From: Eubacteriaceae bacterium
Lineage (GTDB): Bacteria > Bacillota > Clostridia > Eubacteriales > Eubacteriaceae
Direction of reading: 5' to 3'
DNA length: 64,000 bases
Assembly: GCA_012522805.1 (NCBI GenBank)
Contig: JAAYJS010000019.1
Span: 1 to 64,000, forward strand
The notes beneath the pieces were generated by a model. The model saw only the letters and a list, made by a program, of their open reading frames with translations. It was not told the DNA's origin and did no database searches. The position numbers and the translations under genes were made by a program. Positions 679-6,019 of this stretch are shown in pieces (within the stretch, counting starts at the first letter, position 1; each line of letters begins with the position of its first letter).

Positions 679-1482
679 TTATTTTGATTCAAAATTCTTT
701 TTAAAGGATGTGGTATAGTTTCGACAGAACATATCTTTTCCAAGCAACAGTTCTGTTGCTTTCAAAGATTCAATCAGCGCCGTATTAAGCGGGTCGACAA
801 CGGCGGAATCCATACCCAATGCCATAGCGAGGGTTAAGAAAGTGCGATTGATCAGCTCACGCTTCGGCAAACCGAAGGAAATATTCGAAAGACCGCCGGT
901 AATATGGGCATCGGGATGGTCTTCTTTAATTTTACGAATGCAATCAAAAGCTAAGAGACCGGCTTTGTAATCTGTGGAAACACTCATAATGAGGGGGTCG
1001 ACGAATACTTTGGAGTCATCGAGACCTATCTTTTGAGTTGCATTAAAGATAATATCCAAGGCTTCCATGCGTTCTTCGATACTTTTGGGCATACCGGACT
1101 TGGATTCGTCCATGGCGAGGGCAATGACGCAGGCACCCCTTTCCTTGATGAGGGGTAAAAGAAGATCTAACTTTGCTTTGTCCGCATTAATCGAGTTAAC
1201 CATAGGCGTTTGTTTAACAACATTGATGGTCTTTTCTATGGTTGTAGGAGCTGAGGAATCCAAGCAAATGGGTGTATCACAGACCTCCTCTACGATACCG
1301 ATCAGCCACATCATGTCGTCGAGTTCTCTCGAGGGGTCGGTGCCCGCATTTACATCGATAAAGTCCGCACCTGCTTGGGCTTGTTTCGTTGCGATGTCGG
1401 CAATGGCATCCCTGTCTTTAGCTAAGATAGCTTTTTGAATGGCGGGGATGGTACCGTTAATTTTTTCACCTATAAAAATCAT
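679..1482 (-). CDS. Pterin-binding methyltransferase (methyltetrahydrofolate:corrinoid protein type)
   Basis: At 267 residues this matches the compact TIM-barrel pterin-binding family shared by AcsE/MeTr, the MetH folate domain and O-demethylase methyltransferase II. Seen: GEKING near the N-terminus, the DVNAG strand, LDSS, the VNSINADK strand and SNISFGLP near the C-terminus, all in the order of that family. The expected role is moving a methyl group between a cobalamin-bound corrinoid protein and tetrahydrofolate in the cytoplasm. It is the last gene of the minus-strand operon, nine bases after the UroD-like methyltransferase. ATG at 1482 is preceded by a weak AAGGTG. It could be a dihydropteroate synthase only by fold; the neighbours argue for corrinoid chemistry. 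Confidence 0.85.
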   Translation of the reverse strand: MIFIGEKINGTIPAIQKAILAKDRDAIADIATKQAQAGADFIDVNAGTDPSRELDDMMWLIGIVEEVCDTPICLDSSAPTTIEKTINVVKQTPMVNSINADKAKLDLLLPLIKERGACVIALAMDESKSGMPKSIEERMEALDIIFNATQKIGLDDSKVFVDPLIMSVSTDYKAGLLAFDCIRKIKEDHPDAHITGGLSNISFGLPKRELINRTFLTLAMALGMDSAVVDPLNTALIESLKATELLLGKDMFCRNYTTSFKKNFESK

Positions 1483-1491
1483 GGGTTCACC

Positions 1492-2637
1492 TTAGGACCA
1501 TTCATTGGCTGCTTTAAACATGGCGACAATATTTTCTCTGGTTGCGCTTTCAGGGATATCACATCCGGCTGTAACAATGAGACCCTCGGGACCGATATCA
1601 TCAATCAAGCGGGTCACATAATCATAAACTTGTTCCGGCGTACCGGCGGTCAACAATGTTGCGGGGACATCACCCATAAAGCATGTTTTAGGCAGTTTTT
1701 TACGGGCAGCCCTTAAATCGGTCATACCGTCGGTATTGAGGATGTATTTGCCTTCTTCCAATTCGCCGAAGCGTTCGATATCTCGGTTCCAATTTTGGTC
1801 TAAATGCAGGACTGAAATTTTTCCTGCATGTATTACTTGTTCAGCAGATTTCTTCATATAGGGCCATACCAATGTATCCCAGATTTTAGGGGAGACCATG
1901 GCACTGGCTGTCCGCCATCCACCTGTCCAAGCACCAACAACATCTCTATTGGTTTTTACTTTTTCTAAACCCGCTTCAGTTTCCGCATATTTTTCTTCAA
2001 AAATAGCATCGCAGACTTCTTTGACCTTGTCTAATTGTGTATAACAATCGAGGAGTAATTCCGACATAGACCTCATACCGCTTAACCATTCAAAGGGTAT
2101 CATGGTGGTGGGACATCTAAAATCTTGTGTAATCGGATAGCCCATGTCTTTGTATTTATTAAATATTGTTTCTTGAGATTCTGCAAAAATTTTTAAATAT
2201 TTGTTCATATAGTCGATATCGATGATATTAGGAATAATATTTTTCTTTGCAAAATTTCCGAAACCTTCTTTAATAATTTCGTCATATTGGTCGGAATCAA
2301 TTAATTTCTTTTCCTGAACCTGCCAGACTGTATTTTCGCCGATATCTATTCCAGGGATAAGAACCTTTGAGTACCATAACATGCTAATTTGCACAACCAT
2401 GTTCAGTCCGGTTGGTATAGAATTAACTAGATTAATTCCACCGCACTCATCATCTATTTCATGAATAAAATCTATCGTTTTATAAGTCCCCTTAACGGGA
2501 TCGGCAACCAGTTCGGCTATTGTCATTCCGCTAAGAATAGCGCCGACTGCGGGGCCGGAAAAACTTGTTAATGGTCTTTTATTTTTAAAATTGATCGCAT
2601 CTATCAATAGTTGATAGTTGTCATCATATTTACTCAT
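1492..2637 (-). CDS. UroD-family corrinoid methyltransferase (substrate- or cofactor-side component)
   Basis: A 381-residue uroporphyrinogen-decarboxylase-fold protein of the MtaA/MtbA/methyltransferase I kind, not a haem enzyme judging by context. The start is ATG 2637, behind GGAGCGATAAA, which overlaps the stop of the corrinoid gene as ATGA; an upstream in-frame start at 2655 lies inside that gene and has no site of its own. Family members hold a catalytic zinc that activates a thiol or ether substrate. Here the candidate ligands are His278-x-Asp280 in VLHLDQNW and Cys359 in TAGCDIP, an H-x-D variant of the better known H-x-C pattern. The substrate is unknown. The operon provides the corrinoid acceptor upstream and the folate transferase downstream. 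Confidence 0.85.
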   Translation of the reverse strand: MSKYDDNYQLLIDAINFKNKRPLTSFSGPAVGAILSGMTIAELVADPVKGTYKTIDFIHEIDDECGGINLVNSIPTGLNMVVQISMLWYSKVLIPGIDIGENTVWQVQEKKLIDSDQYDEIIKEGFGNFAKKNIIPNIIDIDYMNKYLKIFAESQETIFNKYKDMGYPITQDFRCPTTMIPFEWLSGMRSMSELLLDCYTQLDKVKEVCDAIFEEKYAETEAGLEKVKTNRDVVGAWTGGWRTASAMVSPKIWDTLVWPYMKKSAEQVIHAGKISVLHLDQNWNRDIERFGELEEGKYILNTDGMTDLRAARKKLPKTCFMGDVPATLLTAGTPEQVYDYVTRLIDDIGPEGLIVTAGCDIPESATRENIVAMFKAANEWS

Positions 2638-3254
2638 TTTATCGCTCCTTCGCATAAATCAACGGCATCTTGAGCGTTGACACCGTAGGCATCGGCACCG
2701 CTGTAATCGACGATGGTTTCATCCACAGGGCCGCCGCCGATCACAATTTTAACTTGATCTCTTAAACCGCTGTCTTTAACGGCATTAACCGTGGCCAGTA
2801 TCGAGTCGTAGCAACTTGCCAACAAGCAGGAAAGAGCTAAAACTTTGGCGTCGGATTCCTTTAAGGCATCGACAAATTTTTGCGGCGGTACATCAACGCC
2901 TAAATCTACAACTTCAAAACCGCTTGCTTTAAGCATGTTGCCGACAATGTCCTTACCGATATCGTGGACGTCGTTTTCAACGGTACCCAAAACAACTTTG
3001 CCTTTATACTCAACATCTCCCTGTTTTAAATGGGGTTCCAACAAAGCGGCTACTTCCTTAAAAAGAACACCGGACATAATTAAGTCGGAAACGTAGTATT
3101 CTTCATTGGCAAATTTTTCACCGACAATCACCATACCTTCTTGACATTCTGCCAAAATTTCCTTAGGGTCTTTGCCCGCCGCCAATTCCTTTTCCACTTC
3201 CTGTGGCAATTCCTCCATTTTTAATTCCGCAAGATAGGTTGTAATGTTACTCAT
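2634..3254 (-). CDS. Corrinoid (B12-binding) methyl-carrier protein 1
   Basis: A 206-residue two-domain corrinoid protein. A helical cap (roughly residues 1-80) is followed by a Rossmann B12-binding domain with DVHDIGK, the DxHxxG signature whose histidine is the lower cobalt ligand, then DLGVDVP and a GGGP phosphate loop. It shuttles a methyl group on cobalt between the two methyltransferases encoded downstream. ATG 3254 is chosen because GGAGGAG lies seven bases before it; an in-frame ATG at 3269 would place that site inside the coding region. It is clearly paralogous to the protein at 5320-5961. Confidence 0.93.
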   Translation of the reverse strand: MSNITTYLAELKMEELPQEVEKELAAGKDPKEILAECQEGMVIVGEKFANEEYYVSDLIMSGVLFKEVAALLEPHLKQGDVEYKGKVVLGTVENDVHDIGKDIVGNMLKASGFEVVDLGVDVPPQKFVDALKESDAKVLALSCLLASCYDSILATVNAVKDSGLRDQVKIVIGGGPVDETIVDYSGADAYGVNAQDAVDLCEGAIK

Positions 3255-3281
3255 AAGTTTCTCCTCCATTTTATAAGTACT

Positions 3282-3734
3282 TTAGTGATGATGTTCATGA
3301 TCGTGATGATGGTGATCATGATTATGATCGTGTTCGTGGTGGTGTTCATGCGAGACATGAACTTCGATATCGTACAGATCGCAGATCTGTTGAATCGCCT
3401 GGTTTAAGGCTTCGTTCTCGCTTTCTTTGGTTGCTCCGGCAATCACGGAGTTTAAAGTAATTTGCGAATCGTTGCTCTTTTTTTGCTCGTAAGCATCGCC
3501 CACAATGTGAATGCGACCCTTAGCTTCGGTTAAACTTGCTTTAATATAACCTTTGTCGGTATCGATGATTGCTTTGATATGTCCAATAATCAATTTTTCA
3601 GCCGATTGATTAAGAGCATCGGCAAAGGTTTCTATTAATGTGATGAGAATTTTTTTTGAGGTCTCCAAATCCAAGTCTTTTGAATCGTCGATTGTGATAA
3701 TCGCTGCAAAGGGTTGAAAATCGATTTGTAACAT
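3282..3734 (-). CDS. Unknown protein with histidine-rich metal-binding tail
   Basis: 150 residues. The first 120 or so form a mixed alpha/beta region with no motif I can name securely. The last 26 residues hold 16 histidines mixed with aspartate and glutamate, the type of tail that binds zinc, nickel or cobalt in HypB-, UreE- and CobW-associated proteins. Its ATG abuts the stop of the CobW-like gene, and AGGTGG sits inside the end of that gene, so the two are translationally linked. Because the GTPase next door lacks the usual CobW C-terminal domain, this protein may supply that half of a split CobW. That is inference. A metal store or metal donor for the UroD-like methyltransferase would also fit. 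Confidence 0.8.
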   Translation of the reverse strand: MLQIDFQPFAAIITIDDSKDLDLETSKKILITLIETFADALNQSAEKLIIGHIKAIIDTDKGYIKASLTEAKGRIHIVGDAYEQKKSNDSQITLNSVIAGATKESENEALNQAIQQICDLYDIEVHVSHEHHHEHDHNHDHHHHDHEHHH

Positions 3735-4295
3735 TTAATCCACCTGGCTCTCTTCAATCTCAACGCCGGGTTGCTGTGAGTTGATAAAATCATGAGATTT
3801 TTGCACATCTTCCGGCGGGGCTAAACCGACTTTGGAAATGATGACCTTGTCTGCATTTTGAATGCCGGTTTCCGTCAAAGGGCCTATGACTTCAATCAAC
3901 ATACCGATTCGTACCGCATCGATTATCATTACATTATAGATTTCATCTCTTTGAAGCCCGCAATCCTTTAGTATCGCTAAGACTCCCTTGATATCCGCAA
4001 CGCCGGAGGGTTCAATGCAAATCAGGTCGACATTGAAATCTTTTAATAACATATCGACGGCAGTGTGCAAACCTGCGTTCATGGAACAGCAAATGCAGCC
4101 GTCAAATAGCTCGGTTACCTCCATGCCATTATTAGCATATTCTATGTTATCAACACCGAATTCGGAAATCTCGTTGACGATGACGGCACATTTTTTTCCG
4201 TTTTTAATCCATTCTTTTGTTTGATTTAAAAGATGGGTGGTTTTACCGGATCCTAAAAAGCCGGATACAATATAACATTTTATTTTGTTATTCAT
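3735..4295 (-). CDS. Short CobW/COG0523-type P-loop GTPase
   Basis: 186 residues, only the GTPase half of a normal CobW protein of more than 300. Visible motifs: Walker A GFLGSGKTT at 12-20, the family metal site GCICC at 66-70, and EPSGVAD near 96 as the Walker B/switch region. The guanine-specificity motif reads SKVG (154-157) where family members have (N/S/T)KxD, so base selectivity may be changed. COG0523 proteins use GTP hydrolysis to hand metal ions, often zinc or cobalt, to client enzymes. This one opens the corrinoid operon, behind GGGGAGCGAA, and is followed without a gap by the histidine-tailed protein. A role in metal or cobalamin loading of the methyltransferases is inferred from position only. 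Confidence 0.88.
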   Translation of the reverse strand: MNNKIKCYIVSGFLGSGKTTHLLNQTKEWIKNGKKCAVIVNEISEFGVDNIEYANNGMEVTELFDGCICCSMNAGLHTAVDMLLKDFNVDLICIEPSGVADIKGVLAILKDCGLQRDEIYNVMIIDAVRIGMLIEVIGPLTETGIQNADKVIISKVGLAPPEDVQKSHDFINSQQPGVEIEESQVD

Positions 4296-4329
4296 TTCGC
4301 TCCCCGTTTGACATTATTTAAATCTTTCT

Positions 4330-4342
4330 GTACTAGTACGTA
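4330..4342. promoter_or_regulatory. Second GTAC-type operator candidate in the CobW operon leader
   Basis: GTACTAGTAC (4330-4339) is a perfect palindrome overlapping TACGTA (4337-4342). It lies in the leader between the promoter and the CobW start and resembles the sites at 4410-4419 and 5976-5987, so it may be a further GntR site. Confidence 0.6.
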
Positions 4343-4409
4343 TGTGTTGTTCAAAAAAAATATCTTTAATTTATCTCCTCCAATTTAACCATTTGTAATA
4401 AAGCATACG

Positions 4410-4458
4410 GGTACGTACCGCTTGCCATTAATATAGCATCTAATTTAATGGTTGTCAA
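4410..4458 (-). promoter_or_regulatory. Promoter of the CobW-methyltransferase operon with downstream palindromic operator
   Basis: On the minus strand TTGACA (4453-4458) and TATATT (4430-4435) are 17 bases apart. The perfect 10-base palindrome GGTACGTACC (4410-4419) lies about 10 to 20 bases downstream of the -10 box, where a bound repressor would block initiation. Its core is shared with the site in front of the corrinoid protein 2/GntR operon. Confidence 0.8.
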
Positions 4459-4519
4459 ACATTTTAGAGAAAATAAATAAAATATCTACCAAATAAGTCG
4501 ATCGTCAACGTTTAAATTC

Positions 4520-4555
4520 AAAAGACCGGATATCCTAAGAGATAGCCGGTCTTTT
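4520..4555 (-). terminator. Terminator of the corrinoid protein 2/GntR operon
   Basis: AAAAGACCGG pairs with CCGGTCTTTT around a 16-base loop; on the minus strand the stem ends in a T-run. It separates the GntR operon from the promoter of the CobW operon. Confidence 0.8.
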
Positions 4556-4592
4556 AGCGAATAGGGTTTTAGTAGAAATTTTAGCGAGCAAT

Positions 4593-5318
4593 CTAAAAAA
4601 TATTACTACTTTTATCTACCTTTGGTAAAGAAGCCTTGAGGCTGAGGTATTTTGGTCGAATATAGAAAATCGTGTATTGCACGATTTTTTTGGTGGAAGT
4701 ATTTTTGATTGTCTCCATTATTTTAAATAGGGGTTCGTTGTCTTGAAATTCCAATTTATTTTTGAGTTCTTCGTTTGGTAGCTCGATACCAATTTCCAAG
4801 GTTTTGTCTAGAACAAAGGCCAGTTTCTCTTCTAAGGGTTTTAAATAATTGGCAAATTTCAACATATCTTCAATGACCGGCTGGTTTGGTAAATATTCAA
4901 AATATACGTACTCTAAAGCTATGGGTTGTTCTTTGGAGGATAAGAGACGGACAACTTCGACAATTTTATCGTTTTCTTCCAAATTTAGTTTTTTTTCTAT
5001 CCCTTTGGGAGTGTCCTTGATGGTGACAGATAATAACTTCACCTTGTCGATATGGGTTTTTAATCCGTCGTATTTATTAAATTTAAATTGAAAAATATCC
5101 GTATCCGGTTTGCAAATATAATTGCCTTTACCAGGTACCGAATAAACATAGCCTTCGTTAGATAATAGAGAAAGACTCTTACGAATCGTCATACGTCCTG
5201 CATCGTATATCTTCATTAATTGTGGTTCCGATTCTAGCTTTTCGCCGGGCTTTAAGTCGCCTTTTAAAATTTTTTCTTTGATACTGGAAACAATTGATAA
5301 ATATAGAACGTCGCTCAT
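4593..5318 (-). CDS. GntR-family transcriptional regulator, HutC/UTRA subfamily
   Basis: 241 residues. The N-terminal winged helix (about 10-75) shows the GntR pattern IKEKILKGDLKPGEKLESE followed by RMTIRKSLSLLSNEG and VPGKGNYI. The remaining part (about 85-235) has the layout of a UTRA small-molecule-binding domain, including the strand LEYVYFEYLPN. It follows corrinoid protein 2 with one base between the stop and its ATG. Such regulators usually repress a catabolic operon until an inducer binds. GTAC palindromes in front of both corrinoid operons make it the likely regulator of both and of itself. The inducer is unknown but is probably related to the methyl donor. Confidence 0.92.
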   Translation of the reverse strand: MSDVLYLSIVSSIKEKILKGDLKPGEKLESEPQLMKIYDAGRMTIRKSLSLLSNEGYVYSVPGKGNYICKPDTDIFQFKFNKYDGLKTHIDKVKLLSVTIKDTPKGIEKKLNLEENDKIVEVVRLLSSKEQPIALEYVYFEYLPNQPVIEDMLKFANYLKPLEEKLAFVLDKTLEIGIELPNEELKNKLEFQDNEPLFKIMETIKNTSTKKIVQYTIFYIRPKYLSLKASLPKVDKSSNIF

Positions 5319-5319
5319 C

Positions 5320-5961
5320 TTACTTCTCTAATTTGTATCTTTCCGTTAAATAATTTTGACAATATTGAAGTCCAAGAAATAGATCGTCGGACATAAAGTC
5401 TATGTGGGGAATATCGATATGACCACTGTGGGTAACAGCACCCCCCAAAATTAACTTCGTATTGTCAAGCAATTTTTTGTCCTTTAAAGATTGTGCAAGT
5501 TCTTTAATGTGAGGGATAGAGTTGGCCATAACGCAGGAAACGGCAATAATATCCGGTTTTTCAATTTGGGCGTGTTTTATAAATTCGGCCACAGGTACAT
5601 CAACTCCTAGGTTAATCACTTCTATGCCGTAATTTTTCAAGGCATCGATTAATAAATCTTTTCCAAGATCGTGAATGTCTTCATAAATCGTGCCGATCAA
5701 TACTTTTCCTTGTACGCGAAATTCCGGTACATTGTTGTCACAAGCGTGAGCTGCAGAAAAAATATCTTTTGCGATCATCCCTGATACGATTAAATCTGCT
5801 AAATAGCATTCTTGTTTGGCATATTTTTCGCCTACGATTTGAAGGCCTTTCATGACTTGTTCGTAAAGATCTCCTTTAGTAATTCCTTGGGAGATCAACT
5901 CTTCGGTTTTGGATTCTGCATTTTTAACATCTAACTCGGCGATATAATCTTTTAGATCCAT
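5320..5961 (-). CDS. Corrinoid (B12-binding) methyl-carrier protein 2
   Basis: 213 residues with the same two-domain plan as the protein at 2634-3254: helical cap with ISQGITKGDLYEQVMKGLQIVGEKYA, then the B12 domain with DIHDLGK (lower-ligand histidine), NLGVDVP and LGGAVTHSG. ATG 5961 has AGGAG eight bases upstream. It is cotranscribed with the GntR regulator instead of a methyltransferase. It may serve a methyltransferase elsewhere, or share the enzymes of the neighbouring operon. Confidence 0.92.
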   Translation of the reverse strand: MDLKDYIAELDVKNAESKTEELISQGITKGDLYEQVMKGLQIVGEKYAKQECYLADLIVSGMIAKDIFSAAHACDNNVPEFRVQGKVLIGTIYEDIHDLGKDLLIDALKNYGIEVINLGVDVPVAEFIKHAQIEKPDIIAVSCVMANSIPHIKELAQSLKDKKLLDNTKLILGGAVTHSGHIDIPHIDFMSDDLFLGLQYCQNYLTERYKLEK

Positions 5962-5972
5962 TTTTTTCTCCT

Positions 5973-6019
5973 GTACGTATCAGTACGAATCATTATACCA
6001 CAATTTTACTTGAAGTAAA
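5973..6019 (-). promoter_or_regulatory. Promoter and operator of the corrinoid protein 2/GntR operon
   Basis: Minus-strand TTTACT (6014-6019) and TATAAT (5992-5997) are 16 bases apart. Directly downstream, CGTA-TCAG-TACG (5976-5987) is an inverted repeat that overlaps the expected start site and shares GTACGTA and GTACAG with the sites at 4330 and 4410. Confidence 0.78.

Follow-up and report, generated by a model that had tools for sequence, protein, structure and literature searches.

Closest described systems

Three-component O-demethylases and their relatives, such as MtvABC, OdmABC and CdmBCA, associate a methyltransferase I of the UroD type, a corrinoid protein and a methyltransferase II, while the MtaABC methanol methyltransferases use a methyltransferase I of another family, MtaB. 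The G3E GTPases of COG0523/CobW (YjiA, YeiR, CobW, ZigA, Nha3) form a second group of interest here. They share a P-loop, an ExxG motif and a CxCC motif, histidine stretches are common among them and, for many, the client proteins are unknown (PMC9164220). According to Haas et al. (2009, PMC2770081), one branch, COG0523 subfamily 13, is encoded close to mtaA/mtaB/mtaC and ramM in methanogens, and close to related genes in clostridia. The locus described here occupies positions 679-5961 of a 64,000-nucleotide window (the whole stretch analysed, positions 1 to 64,000 of contig JAAYJS010000019.1, assembly GCA_012522805.1) from an Eubacteriaceae bacterium. It associates a three-component system with a 186-aa GTPase and a 150-aa histidine-tailed protein. 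These two proteins are a real, co-inherited pair, and we consider with moderate confidence that together they make up a split metallochaperone of the COG0523 type, with methyltransferase I as its dedicated client.

Organisation of the locus

The seven genes listed by the initial annotation are all present at the positions that it gave, on the minus strand:

5320..5961, minus strand: corrinoid protein (second of two), 213 aa, with B12-binding and cap domains and a DIHDLG motif
4593..5318, minus strand: GntR/UTRA regulator, 241 aa, presumed regulator of both transcription units
3735..4295, minus strand: GTPase-only COG0523 protein, 186 aa (PF02492, E 4e-30), no CobW_C domain
3282..3734, minus strand: histidine-tailed partner, 150 aa, with a GHIK domain (about residues 1-125) and a C-terminal histidine tail
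2634..3269, minus strand: MtgC-like corrinoid protein, 211 aa, with DxHxxG present as DVHDIG
1492..2655, minus strand: UroD-family methyltransferase I, 387 aa as called
679..1482, minus strand: methyltransferase II of the methyl-tetrahydrofolate:corrinoid type (NF005719, 311 bits for a cut-off of 259)

The stop codon of the GTPase gene directly abuts the start of the partner gene (TAA then ATG), and the likely start of the UroD gene is the ATG at 2637, which gives an ATGA overlap with the preceding stop. Because the genes overlap or abut, two transcription units are suggested, one with the corrinoid protein and GntR genes, the other running from the GTPase through the partner, the MtgC-like corrinoid protein and the UroD protein to the methyltransferase II. 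The second one thus holds methyltransferase I, corrinoid protein and methyltransferase II together in one operon, as in MtvABC, OdmABC and CdmBCA, and CdmB is the closest solved relative of the UroD protein (E 5e-31 with a profile). What those systems lack is the GTPase/histidine-tailed pair, the second corrinoid protein and the GntR regulator. Since many genomes contain the same set of genes, the arrangement is not due to chance.

Two probable halves of a COG0523 protein

The GTPase carries the signatures of COG0523: a P-loop (GFLGSGKTT) that fits GxxGxGK[ST], an ExxG motif (EPSG) that is invariant in the GTPase alignment, and a CxCC motif (GCICC) that is intact in 70 of the 72 paired GTPases. 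It differs from the family in two respects. Its chain consists of the GTPase domain only, without C-terminal CobW_C domain, and its G4 motif reads SKVG instead of [NST]KxD, SKxD being tolerated in COG0523 (PMC7895991). Five related pairs (L027, L136, L137, L172, L173) also have a G4 motif without the aspartate (NKxE, NKxQ or NKxK), which rules out a frameshift or sequencing error and suggests, as far as a motif can tell, a weakened guanine specificity in this sublineage. In a tree, the paired GTPases are mostly separate from the full-length COG0523 members. Membership of the CobW-related selenoprotein family NF041053 was rejected (74 bits for a cut-off of 180).

The partner consists of a core domain with an invariant G-H-[IVL]-K motif, called GHIK here, followed by the tail; as the initial annotation had reported, 16 of its last 26 residues are histidines. 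Neither the window partner nor any GHIK member tested matches a Pfam model above cut-off (PF07683, the C-terminal domain of COG0523 proteins, included), and the window partner has no NCBIfam match above cut-off. An AlphaFold2 model of the GHIK domain, built from a 7-sequence alignment (pLDDT 81.5), shows a beta-alpha-beta-beta-beta-alpha-beta order. When this model was compared by Foldseek with 350,542 PDB chains, the top three matches were all YjiA entries, and the predicted counterpart of the partner is the C-terminal domain of YjiA.

Natural fusions point in the same direction. In the archaeal locus L051, a single protein contains the GTPase, the GHIK domain and an HHHH stretch, and GTPase-GHIK fusions of 359-363 aa occur in Eubacteriaceae-like relatives (L158, L159, L169). 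The alignment of the L051 fusion model with YjiA spans both domains (359 columns, E 4e-13), whereas HypB and UreG match the model over one domain and only about 200 columns. The GTPase had been described as "split-looking" by the initial annotation, an apt term in view of the YjiA fold match and of these single-chain forms. The simplest reading of the models would be that the two genes correspond to a COG0523-type metallochaperone cut between its domains.

Partners vary widely in their histidine content. Of the 475 residues of the partner L057:7584-9011, 119 are histidines, most of them within a long N-terminal stretch. The archaeal partners of L214-L217 (e.g., L214:7344-8093) end in extensions of 26-40 histidines mixed with cysteines; in three of these four loci (L215-L217), they adjoin MtaB, corrinoid protein and activator genes. 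In L145:7442-8578, GHIK is fused to DUF2284 and preceded by an N-terminal stretch rich in histidine and cysteine, directly 3' of GTPase and activator genes.

Distribution and genomic neighbourhood of the pair

Homologues of the partner were found in 18 of 149 close genomes. In the 20 loci first fetched from these, each partner adjoins a GTPase-only CobW protein inside a corrinoid methyltransferase cluster. The comparison of neighbourhoods called for by the initial annotation therefore did not place the pair mostly away from corrinoid genes, which would have spoken against its proposal. These clusters are of two kinds, UroD with GntR and MtaB; in one of the latter, MtaB was typed by Pfam (585 bits) and is accompanied by a PocR/AraC-type regulator. 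In a phylum sample of 398 genomes, 10 were positive, including that of the window, and most were again corrinoid-linked.

The survey was extended to 77 GHIK genes in the loci fetched from bacteria and archaea (one locus, L047/L198, is counted twice), with a limit of 3 kb for neighbours. The GTPase-profile search of genome contigs served for archaeal and fused cases only, as the matches listed were mostly unrelated full-length COG0523 proteins. A GTPase-only COBW domain is adjacent or fused in all 77 cases. A UroD or MtaB gene is found near 57 of the GHIK genes and a corrinoid protein gene near 48; methyltransferase I occurs without a corrinoid gene in 13 cases, and the reverse in four, three of which lie at contig ends. 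For example, UroD, GTPase and GHIK genes form compact sets in L165-L168 and L170 while no corrinoid gene is near, the UroD identity being confirmed by Pfam in L165 and L166. The constant companion of the pair is thus methyltransferase I (UroD or MtaB), not the corrinoid protein.

Gene lists of single genomes give the same picture. In the four genomes for which UroD genes were listed, each of the ten GHIK genes has a UroD gene at a distance of about 2.1 kb or less; for two of these genomes, which are relatives of each other and have 7 and 8 UroD genes, a rough estimate of the chance of such proximity is about 1% per gene. Conversely, 10 of the 11 MtaB genes in the surveyed genomes lie at most 0.9 kb from a GHIK gene (no MtaB was found in the window genome itself). 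Of the 20 archaeal loci, 12 include UroD or MtaB at no more than about 3 kb, and the histidine extensions of the archaeal partners linked to MtaB are very long. Furthermore, separate pairs accompany separate methyltransferase operons within one genome. Among the MttB matches listed (171 counted, in 27 genomes), none lies within 10 kb of a strong GHIK match, and none of 8 archaeal MttB and 11 MtmB genes is near one. This exclusion of MttB holds for the main family only, since in two genomes a weak, fused GHIK match lies about 7 kb from an MttB-type gene.

The pair shows the co-localisation with corrinoid methyltransferase genes reported for subfamily 13 and probably belongs to the same lineage. 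In the subfamily 13 text of Haas et al. (2009, PMC2770081), no separate histidine-rich partner, split, UroD link or corrinoid-free operon was found, and the literature searched (subscription papers not covered) describes neither a GHIK partner encoded by its own gene, nor the split, nor a link with methyltransferase I. The system had been proposed as undescribed; as far as that literature goes, this stands for the split partner, but not for the neighbourhood of subfamily 13 and corrinoid methyltransferases, noted in 2009 (PMC2770081). The module is real, widespread and incompletely described.

Regulation

Three palindromic sites were located in the window:

4332..4347: predicted GntR operator 5' of the GTPase gene, 13 of 16 matches to ACTTGTACGTATAAGT
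4407..4422: second TACGTA palindrome, GGTACGTACC, a weaker operator candidate in the same intergenic region
5969..5984: predicted GntR operator 5' of the corrinoid protein gene 5961-5320, 13 of 16 matches

Besides the window, 15 UroD-type loci have the 16-base palindrome ACTTGTACGTATAAGT just 5' of their GTPase gene. Sites in the 15 loci have 13-16 matches and are the sole match of that strength in each locus, except for one extra in L136; in the whole 64 kb window, only two sites reach at least 13 matches, 5' of the GTPase gene and of the first corrinoid protein gene. The palindrome is absent from seven MtaB loci and from L172 and L173, two loci that showed no GntR gene. It is likely the GntR operator, a prediction made from its sequence and position, and its sharing would make the pair and the methyltransferase members of one regulon.

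The metal and its probable recipient

In MtaA and CmuA, the zinc ligands form an H-x-C...C signature. The UroD protein of the window matches MtaA (4ay7) weakly (E 0.23) and shows H-x-D...C instead: H284-x-D286 and C365-D366 (numbering of the 387-aa open reading frame) are invariant in 17 proteins of this type. Other UroD groups linked to GHIK mostly have H-x-C-G or x-C-G. At the H-x-D...C positions, CdmB aligns S, Q and F, and its reported crystal structure is zinc-free (PMC13222342). MtaB is a zinc enzyme according to work cited in PMC2770081, and the COG0523 members YeiR and YjiA prefer Zn(II), CobW preferring Co(II) (PMC7895991). Given the invariant H-x-D...C, the contrast with CdmB, the zinc of MtaB and the preference of YeiR and YjiA, zinc is our best guess for the metal that would be delivered. 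The initial annotation left open whether zinc or cobalt was loaded, and whether into the methyltransferase or into its corrinoid partner. Zinc loading of the methyltransferase is favoured because methyltransferase I is the constant neighbour, with or without a corrinoid protein; the cobalt-corrinoid version is less favoured.

Proposed function

Sequence and structure comparison support the pairing, the fusions, the YjiA-like fold, the link with methyltransferase I and the shared operator. We further infer that the metal is zinc, that it passes from the pair to the methyltransferase, that the two proteins form a physical complex and that a nucleotide is needed. The partner would provide a C-terminal CobW_C-like domain and a histidine store gathering metal, most likely Zn(II). 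The nucleotide-bound GTPase would take up this metal through its CxCC site and release it into the apo form of the UroD-type methyltransferase (predicted ligands H284, D286 and C365), the enzyme that would activate the methylated substrate. The methyl group would then pass to the corrinoid protein and, by methyltransferase II, to tetrahydrofolate and the Wood-Ljungdahl pathway, the GntR regulator turning the whole gene set on with the substrate. More tentatively, and with rather less confidence than for the window pair, the split COG0523 branch as a whole (a bare GTPase with a GHIK/histidine-rich partner) could be a dedicated metal-insertion machine for methyltransferase I, UroD-type or MtaB, in bacteria and archaea.

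Several points weigh against a metallochaperone dedicated to methyltransferase I. On the structural side, the match of GHIK with YjiA is modest (E 1e-3, TM 0.35-0.38), with unrelated folds close behind, and the domains of the L051 fusion model are oriented unlike those of YjiA (rmsd about 12 Å). The hhalign match of the GHIK profile with CobW_C is weak (15%), so that the argument for two halves rests on fold and fusions. The nucleotide use of the window GTPase is uncertain because its G4 motif is degenerate. As regards the metal, sequence does not reveal which one it is, the UroD protein that adjoins the L051 fusion has no clear H-x-D...C, and some UroD methyltransferases work without zinc, as CdmB does (PMC13222342) and as a Moorella O-demethylase does according to work cited there. 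As regards linkage, no methyltransferase I or corrinoid gene is found within the 3 kb limit for 16 of the 77 pairs, the MtaB cluster of L177 has no adjoining pair, the two fused matches in the vicinity of MttB-type genes depart from the rule, and many of the surveyed loci are orthologous, so that the counts are not independent.

Alternative explanations

The pair could be a general zinc or cobalt buffer that has no client of its own and is co-expressed with a strongly expressed metalloenzyme. Histidine-rich stretches of up to 119 histidines (L057) and the pairs that stand alone (16/77) would suit such a role, but the linkage to one enzyme class is tight and repeated, the operons are of the GntR or PocR type with no obvious metal-responsive one, and one genome keeps separate pairs for separate methyltransferase operons. 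We regard a buffer as unlikely.

Slightly less probable still is a role in handling cobalt or the corrinoid for the corrinoid protein, similar to that of MeaB or CobW, instead of the metal of methyltransferase I. CobW itself carries Co(II) (PMC7895991) and 48 of the 77 loci have a corrinoid gene within reach. However, 13 loci have UroD or MtaB without a corrinoid gene against four of the reverse kind, and MttB and MtmB systems, which also depend on corrinoids, were not found beside the main family.

The initial annotation also stressed the absence of an iron-sulfur activator, which is true of the operon, but the genome carries two RACo/RACE genes (PF14574, E 6.5e-98 and 2.5e-76) outside this locus, which rules out a missing activator as a peculiarity of the system. 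One lies about 0.3 kb from a methyltransferase II-type gene, among folate and Wood-Ljungdahl genes (named by reading their sequences), and the other adjoins a CooC-like gene (judged by eye). Acetyl-CoA synthase is also encoded, and the organism is an acetogen by gene content. With these genes elsewhere in such a genome, the local absence is unremarkable. That the pair uses GTP to drive the assembly or gating of the complex between methyltransferase I and the corrinoid protein, or stands in for the activator, is therefore very improbable: the G3E relative MeaB/MMAA matures B12 enzymes (PMC9164220) and the operon itself has no activator gene, but the pair does not replace an activator, since activator genes are present elsewhere in the genome and adjoin pairs in other loci (L051, L145, L203, L205, L206, L215-L217), and CxCC and histidine tails point to metal binding.

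Implications and associated genes

The metallochaperone reading points to a concrete, assayable client class, the methyltransferase I enzymes of UroD-type and methanol systems. If true, it would assign clients to a part of COG0523 that is uncharacterised. It would also reveal an unrecognised maturation step in the use of methanol and methyl compounds by acetogens and methylotrophic methanogens. The GntR operon and the methanol operon of genetically tractable acetogens offer a genetic handle on metal delivery, and the pair could help to account for poor metal loading of such enzymes if they are produced heterologously. GHIK itself is a domain defined here that has no Pfam model.

Other genes recur around the pair. 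A solo corrinoid-protein-like reading frame of 128-146 aa lies between the GHIK gene and mtaB in L035 (9714-10121), L032, L033, L040, L041 and L174-L176; that of L035, typed by Pfam, is a B12-binding cap domain only. In one archaeal group, the GTPase-GHIK pair repeatedly stands alone, with no methyltransferase gene (L200, L201, L202 and L198/L047). Several UroD-type operons include a DUF2284 gene (L029:12367-12897, L026:5420-5983), which was not seen in the window operon.

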